DNA of 64,000 bases from an uncultured Pelagibacteraceae bacterium (lineage in GTDB: Bacteria > Pseudomonadota > Alphaproteobacteria > Pelagibacterales > Pelagibacteraceae), in assembly GCA_902535745.1 (NCBI GenBank), contig CACAUR010000005.1, forward strand, positions 20,237 to 84,236, given 5' to 3'. Both the position numbers and the translations under genes were made by a program. Numbering within the stretch: position 1 is the first letter of the stretch; each line of letters starts with the position of its first letter. The notes below the pieces were generated by a model. The model saw nothing but the letters and a program-made list of their open reading frames with translations. It was not told where the DNA came from and ran no database searches. Below are positions 14,429-43,089 of this stretch, piece by piece.

Positions 14429-15709
14429 ATGGAAACTCAATCGGTTTCAAAAACATACACATTAAATAAAACTACCTATATTAATCTTCGATGGATAGCA
14501 ATTCTAGGTCAGTTTTTAACAGTTAATGTTGTAAAGTATGTTTTTAATTTTGAATTTGATATTTTAATTGTCAATGTTGTTATAGTTCTAGGAATAATAT
14601 CTAACATAATTTTAATTTATTTTTATGAAAAAAATATTCTTTCAAATAGAGCTTCATTTTCATTTTTGCTGATCGATATTATTCAATTAAGTTTAATACT
14701 TTACTTTTCAGGGGGAGTTATTAATCCTTTTTCAATTTTTTTAATAATTCCAAGTGTTTTTTCTTCATCTAATCTGTCATTTAAAACCAGTTTATCATTA
14801 ATATTGATTACAATATTTTCAATAATTTTACTTACCCTTTTTCATAAACATTTGATTTACCCTTCAGGCAAAAGATTAATTATTAATGACTTTTACCATT
14901 ATGGTACATCAATATCCTTAATTATTGCTCTTATTTTTCTTAATTATTTTGCAATTTTATTTGGAAGAGAGTCAAATTTAAGAAAAGAAGCATTAAATAA
15001 GATTGAAGAATTCATTGCAAAAGAACATGAGTTGGTATCATTGGGAGGACAAGCTGCAGCTGCAGCTCACTCTTTAAACACACCTCTTTCGACTATAAAA
15101 ATAATTTCTCAAGATCTTCATGATCAGTTTAAAGATAAAAAAGAACTTAAAAAAGATCTTGAATTACTTGTAAACCAAGTTGATAGATGCAGTCAGATCC
15201 TTAAAAGATTGTCACTAAATCCTGGTGTTGAGGATAATTTTATTAATCAAGAATGCTCAATGTTTGATTATGTTAGTGAAATTATTAAATCATTTGAGGA
15301 CATTTCAAATAAGGAATTTACATTAAACAACAGTCAAGACACTAATTCTTTTAAGATAACAAAATTGATAGAGATTATTTATGGAATAAGAAACTTTGTT
15401 GGAAATGCCAATAAATTCGCGAAAAAAAAAATATATATATCCATTAAAAGTGATAACCAATTGACAGAGATATCTATAGAAGACGATGGAAATGGCTATT
15501 CTAAAGAAGTTTTGAACAAAATTGGAGAACCTTACATTAAGTCTTCGTCTTATAATGATAAAGCAAAATCTGGATTAGGTCTTGGAATTTTTATCGGAAA
15601 AACTTTACTTGAAAGAAACGGTGCGAAAGTAATTTGCAGAAATTCAAAAACTAGATCGGGGGCAGAAGTTTTATTAACTTGGAAAAATAAGGATTTAAAA
15701 AACCTTTAG
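14429..15709 (+). CDS. RegB/PrrB-like redox sensor histidine kinase
   Basis: Membrane N-terminus with [28 protein letters not shown]-box; VDRCSQIL; ATPase [24 protein letters not shown]. Confidence 0.85.
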
Positions 15710-33185: not shown

Positions 33186-33278
33186 GAGCAAATAAAAATA
33201 GTGTAAAAATCAATAAAATTCAAATTTTTGACTTAATTTTTTATTTTATTATAGCTATAATAATTTTTTGGTAATTTT

Positions 33279-35790: not shown

Positions 35791-37076
35791 ATGAAAGTAA
35801 TTTCCGCAAAAAATAAGAATTTTGATAAAATTTTAAATAATCTTCTTTCTAAAAGAAAAAATAAACTTCGATCAGATTACGTTTCAGTAAAAAATATAAT
35901 TAAAGATGTTAAAAAAAATGGAGATAAAGCTTTACTAAAATATGAGAAAAGATTTAATAAAAATAAAACGATCATTCCTACCCCAAAAAAAATTAAGGAC
36001 TCCATTAAATCCTTAGACCAAAAAGTAAAAAAAGCGATAGATGCAGCTTATAATAGAATTTACAAATTCCATTCACTTCAAAAGTTTAAAGATGTTTTGT
36101 ATATTGATAAGTACCAAAATAAAGTGAAATATAAATATGTTCCACTTGAGTCAGTTGCAATTTACGTTCCAGGTTCAAAAGTTTCTTATCCATCGAGTGT
36201 TTTAATGAGCACAATACCTGCGATCGTAGCAGGTGTTAAAAGAATTGTGATGATTAATCCTGGTTACAAGGGAAAACAAAATGCTGCAGTTTTATACGCT
36301 GCAAAAAAATGCAAAATCAGAGAAATTTATTCAATTGGTGGTCCTTCAGCAATTGCAGCTGCTGCATATGGAACTAAATCAATTAAAGCTGTAAATAAAA
36401 TTGTGGGACCAGGGAACTCGTATGTGGCTTCAGCAAAAAAAGAGGTTTTTGGGGATATAGGTATTGAGTCAATGACAGCTGGACCTTCAGAGGTTCTAGT
36501 TGTTTGTGACAATAAATCTAATCCAGAATGGTTAGCAAGCGATTTAATTGCTCAAGCTGAACACGATACTCTTGCACAATGTATTTTAATCTCAAAAGAT
36601 AAAAATATTCTAAAAAAACTAAGAATGAAATAACAAATCAACTTAAAAGCATTTCGAGAAGCTCAATTGCAAAAAAGAGTTTAATGATGAATGGTGTGCT
36701 AATCTACGAAAATTCAGAAAATAAAATTGCAGAAATAATTAATAAGGTGGGCCCAGAGCATTTAGAGCTAAATGTAAAAAATTATAAGTCTTTAATTCCA
36801 AAAATAAAGAACGCAGGTTCTATTTGCTTAGGAAAATTTGCTGTGATGGCAATGACAGATTATGGGGTACCTGGCACTAATCATGTTCTTCCAACCAATA
36901 TGACCAGTAAATACTCAAGTGGATTAAGTGTTTCAGAGTTTATTAAAAAAATTTCATACATAAATTTATCAAAAAAGGGTATTGAAACTCTTGGTCCATC
37001 AGTTATAACTCTTGCAACTAATGAAGGTTTAGATGGACATGCTAAATCAATTAAAAAAAGATTAGGAGAACTATAA
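35791..37076 (+). CDS. hisD: histidinol dehydrogenase, interrupted by apparent frameshift at A7 (36612-36618)
   Basis: ORFs 35791-36633 ([38 protein letters not shown]) and 36684-37076 ([16 protein letters not shown]) form one HisD; -1 frame bridges as ...[34 protein letters not shown]. Confidence 0.9.
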
Positions 37077-42406: not shown

Positions 42407-43089
42407 ATGGAATGGAATAAAAAATTTAATTATCCAAGTTCTACTCGAGCATTAATTCACGGAAAAAGGCACTACTCTTTAAATGGATCTAACTTACCCT
42501 CTGTTACAACCATACTTTCAGCAACAAAAAGTGAAGAGGACAAAGCTGCATTAGCCGCATGGAAGGAAAGAGTCGGAAAGTTCGAGGCAGATAGAATCAA
42601 AAAAGAAGCATCAAGTAGAGGTAGCTCAATTCACAAGTTTATTGAAGAGTTTCTACATGGAAAGCTTAATCAAGATTTAATTGATGATAACAATCAATCA
42701 AAAAAATGGCAGAAGAGATTATAGATAATGGTCTTAAAAATAAACTAACAGAAGTTTGGGGCGCTGAAGCAACACTATATTATCCTAACAAATATGCTGG
42801 CACAGCTGACTGTATAGGTGTTTATGAAGGCAGAGAGACAATTTTAGATTTTAAACAAAGTAATAAACCAAAAAAGAAAGAGTATATTGAAGACTATTTT
42901 TTACAAATAGGGGCCTATTCATTAGCGCATAACACAGTTTATAACTCCAACATCACACAGGGAGTTGTTTTGATGTGTACAGTAGACAGACTATTTCAAG
43001 ATTTTAAAATTGAAGGTAATGAACTTTTAGATTATCAAAATAAATTTCTTGAGAGAGTTGAAAAATTTTACAACCTTTTTGTCAAATGA
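42407..43089 (+). CDS. PD-(D/E)XK (phage exonuclease-like) nuclease, interrupted by apparent frameshift at A7 (42700-42706)
   Basis: ORF 42407-42724 (LPSVTTILSATKSEEDKAALAAWKERVG...RGSSIHKFIEEFLHGK) and ORF 42706-43089 (YAGTADCIGVYEGRETILDFKQSNK...YFLQIGAYSLAHN) are complementary halves. Confidence 0.8.

Follow-up and report, generated by a model that had tools for sequence, protein, structure and literature searches.

A poly(A) frame break that splits hisD in a SAR11 draft genome is probably of technical origin

The window, a 64,000-nucleotide stretch of genome G000 (G000:C5:20237-84236; genomic G+C content 29.6%), carries a gene for histidinol dehydrogenase (hisD) that is broken into two frames at a run of seven adenines. 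The nearest relatives of this genome are single-cell assemblies of SAR11 (Pelagibacteraceae), and G000 is probably itself a single-amplified genome, judging from these neighbours. The gene is flanked by a small conserved gene on one side and an infA-like sequence on the other, and gene order beyond it runs from the infA-like sequence through tRNA-Phe, a cold-shock-type gene and tRNA-His to hisS, hisZ and hisG. A first-pass annotation had described hisZ and hisG as intact, which was borne out and applies to hisS as well. An Rfam scan of the window returned tRNAs only. The parts of the split gene are as follows.

35791-37076, plus strand: hisD as a whole, split by a one-base lesion at the A7 run
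35791-36633, plus strand: 5′ part of hisD, an in-frame ORF of 280 aa that ends at a TAA past the lesion and matches TIGR00069 at 306 bits (profile positions 1-248)
36612-36618, plus strand: A7 run and site of the frame break, one base below the A8 of most close relatives
36618-37076, plus strand: 3′ part of hisD in the -1 frame, 152 aa to the native stop, with a profile match and a pattern of purifying selection

The sequence across the lesion reads CTA AAA AAA CTA AGA ATG AAA TAA, with the stop codon ending at 36633, and the -1 frame from 36618 continues through GPEHLELN, GTNHVLPT and LGEL to a stop at 37076. The run and the frame 0 stop lie exactly where the first-pass annotation had put them. 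Its claim that a -1 step restores the whole C-terminal part of HisD also stands, as the two halves match family profiles contiguously, at positions 1-248 and 248-393 of 393 in TIGR00069 and at 8-264 and 265-411 in the Pfam family PF00815, and combined they give full profile coverage. No second lesion was seen in either half, in agreement with the same annotation, and the extra stops elsewhere in hisD that would mark a simple pseudogene were likewise not seen. Between the 3′ half and its counterpart in the sister assembly G049, 15 codons differ synonymously and 5 non-synonymously, with differences at first, second and third codon positions numbering 3, 3 and 15, which shows the predicted 3′ half to be still under purifying selection and undecayed.

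In G049 (93% DNA identity) the site has A8, and the sequence downstream (CTAAGAATGAAATAACAAATCAACTTAAAAGC) is identical to that of G000. A window-wide alignment placed exactly one extra A at 36612 in 12 close relatives; the remaining close relatives aligned at the site have other codons and keep the frame, including those in which the run is interrupted or shorter. Most close relatives, at 89-95% identity, thus carry an in-frame A8, and none of those aligned over the site has the A7 frame break. Reading this run in related genomes was a check that the first-pass annotation had proposed, and because most relatives have A8 and the rest other in-frame codons, the A7 of G000 is, on this alignment, a private deletion (A8 to A7). 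Loss of one A from an in-frame NNA AAA AAA A always leaves A_AAA_AAA in the slippery phase. Since the phase follows automatically from the deletion, it is not independent evidence of recoding.

Other genes of G000 carry breaks of the same kind. The gene-by-gene comparison covered 755 kb of G000, 775 kb of G049 and 440 kb of a second sister assembly, G059. Among approximately 480 orthologues checked between G000 and G049 there were eight frameshift candidates, six of which were judged real. Candidate breaks before hisS (37990) and at 33264 were rejected, the former being upstream of the real coding sequence and the latter in a 5′ extension outside it. The six are single-base frameshifts private to G000, in hisD and the five genes below; gene names other than hisD, hisS, hisZ and hisG are our reading of the protein sequences.

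42407-43089, plus strand: the window's second split gene, PD-(D/E)XK nuclease-like, A8 to A7 in the run at 42700-42706; 227 aa and intact in relatives
mrdA/PBP2: A7 to A8, also confirmed against G059
pxpA/LamB-like gene: A9 to A10, also confirmed against G059
rplI: loss of a single base from an A-rich stretch; intact in the other members of the genus with a match
ygfZ-like gene: a G run lengthened by one base

The lesions therefore include both insertions and deletions, in both A and G runs, and the one in the 42407 gene leaves A_AAA_AAA in the slippery phase just as in hisD.

Breaks were also found in sister assemblies, namely in secA of G049 (A8 to A7), in smc of G059 (an insertion in an A stretch) and in a DUF-type gene of L065 (one extra A). 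In L075 (AG-325-J17), hisG has an A9 to A10 frameshift at 14865 relative to G049, so that a break at a poly(A) run affects a histidine gene in this single-cell assembly too. The complete genome G012, used as a control with approximately 155 orthologues, gave two candidates, neither of which was judged a clear lesion: the first falls at a start region, the second in a glycosyltransferase-like gene of 55% identity. G000 seems somewhat richer in such lesions than its sister assemblies (Fisher P 0.024 against the pooled sister controls, with approximate denominators and in a test made post hoc). A different kind of interruption was seen in a gcrA-like gene of G059 (G059:C5:28214-28264, minus strand), which is intact in G000 and G049. 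In this case a 49-base insertion contains a near-perfect inverted repeat, AGAATGGCTGTCTTA...TAAGATAGCCATTCT, and is either a hairpin element or an amplification artefact.

G000 encodes a second HisD-family protein (C6:32575-33801; L001, L035:12539-13828), which was considered as a backup HisD and rejected. Among solved structures it matches sulfopropanediol 3-dehydrogenase and (R)-DHPS dehydrogenase best, at 491-500 bits, against at most 232 bits for HisD structures, and the paralogue was not found in the examined part of G049. On these grounds the protein is probably of the HpsN type rather than a reserve HisD, and it suggests use of the sulfonate DHPS in G000.

The split in hisD most likely comes from an error of amplification, sequencing or consensus calling, a reading we hold to be probable. 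The lost A would have disappeared during whole-genome amplification, sequencing or consensus calling and not in the cell, hisD in the living population would be an ordinary intact histidinol dehydrogenase gene, and recoding would not be needed. Homopolymer error is expected to leave several private homopolymer indels across an assembly, in genes of any function, and this is what was found in G000. Breaks in mrdA/PBP2, secA and smc are difficult to square with a living cell, as these genes are normally essential in other bacteria and are taken to be so in SAR11. Six breaks in one cell, one of them in PBP2, together with those in secA and smc of sibling assemblies, are therefore better explained by amplification or consensus error, and we infer a technical origin for the hisD lesion rather than a real mutation. 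A real null in hisD would probably cost the cell histidine synthesis, and this too leads us to expect that the gene is intact in life. Indels are also listed among the assembly artefacts of single-cell genomes in a benchmark paper (PMC5519541). Against a technical origin, real homopolymer slips should be commoner than usual in organisms that lack mutS and mutL.

A real and very recent slip in the cell that was sampled, or in its immediate lineage, leaving a null or polymorphic hisD allele, is a possible but rather unlikely source of the A7. Without mismatch repair such slips would be frequent and selection would remove them. No match to mutS was found among 61 Pelagibacterales genomes (G000-G084), and none to mutL above the cut-off, in agreement with a report that SAR11 lacks both genes (PMC12374537); given this absence, a private and undecayed hisD null is to be expected occasionally. 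An A8 run is mutable, every lesion in G000 is private and undecayed, and promiscuous recombination in SAR11 could restore a hisD allele (PMC12374537). However, a viable free-living cell under strong selection should not carry as many as six undecayed frameshifts, with mrdA among the affected genes, and the enrichment in G000 relative to sister assemblies points to a cause specific to this assembly. Runs of up to 13 A occur in intact long ORFs, so coding homopolymers are plentiful in this order without mismatch repair.

The first-pass annotation had offered four options for the frame break, of which homopolymer error and a recent A8 to A7 slip gained support, as A8 is the commonest state in sisters and at least five other private breaks are present. 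Its two rescue options, RNA polymerase slippage and -1 ribosomal frameshifting, gained no support, as the site is not conserved and the sibling lesions are of mixed sign and base. That the A7 of hisD is a genuine recoding feature is not supported. It is highly unlikely, in our estimate, that free-living SAR11 without MutSL tolerate private homopolymer frameshifts in many genes, even essential ones, through poly(A) slippage in transcription or translation that yields enough full-length protein. If it were true, the endosymbiont type of slippage rescue would extend to the most abundant, free-living bacteria of the ocean.

Polymerase slippage at the poly(A) run, by which an A would be added to some transcripts and HisD rescued as in Blochmannia or Buchnera, is very improbable in hisD. 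The genome is A+T-rich and the 3′ half of the gene is undecayed, and there are precedents in which 12-50% of transcripts are corrected, including those of a histidine gene of an ant endosymbiont (PMC5009743), and in which Blochmannia genes are frameshifted yet conserved (PMC3017870). A run of seven is short, however, as the known bacterial sites have about 8-9 A or more; the working length is 9A, with 8A possible (PMC1088944), and insertion grows exponentially with run length (PMC5574713). A low-rate leak at A7 may occur. Blochmannia poly(A) frameshifts are conserved across species (PMC3017870), whereas the hisD break is private to G000 and kept in no related genome. Over 2,000 A-runs of at least seven lie in open coding frames, and a Buchnera transcriptome study revealed no frame-restoring event (PMC5574713).

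A -1 ribosomal frameshift at A_AAA_AAA giving full-length HisD is likewise very improbable, for although the X_XXY_YYZ heptamer has the phase required and the shift restores the whole protein, the phase results automatically from the loss of one A, as in the 42407 gene, and the A7 arrangement recurs in no relative, all of which are in frame with A8 or other codons. Of the 631 ORFs with 150 aa or more, 492 contain the same heptamer in phase, from a total of 1,262 distinct runs. A site so common cannot be an efficient place of shifting, since most of the proteome would then be damaged. In E. coli, A_AAA_AAA is far less prone to shifting than A_AAA_AAG (review, PMC5009743). The RNA downstream of the hisD site folds no better than shuffled sequences (z +0.79; stretches from -0.05 to +1.30), so that no stimulatory structure was found there, and lesions of both signs in A and G runs leave no single shift or recoding rule that would mend all of them.

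As a single locus, hisD matters little, and its use is cautionary. Private homopolymer frameshifts affect approximately 0.3-1.3% of the genes checked in SAR11 single-cell drafts, and at such a frequency apparent auxotrophies and recoding sites should be checked against reads or relatives before being accepted.

Among known systems, the programmed -1 frameshift of E. coli dnaX (A_AAA_AAG) resembles the hisD site in having its heptamer in the X_XXY_YYZ phase. It differs in that hisD has A_AAA_AAA, with no downstream structure, no conservation and the same heptamer in most long genes. The Blochmannia and Buchnera cases (PMC3017870, PMC5009743) share a small A+T-rich genome, a poly(A) indel and an otherwise intact gene with G000, and like G000 they include a histidine gene. 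The comparison with insect endosymbionts drawn in the first-pass annotation nevertheless fits poorly, since G000 is a marine, free-living SAR11 with a run of seven that is not conserved in relatives, whereas the endosymbiont cases have long poly(A) tracts. A third likeness is to the homopolymer artefacts of single-amplified genome assemblies, with which the G000 case shares private A- and G-run indels of both signs, in several genes and with intact flanks.
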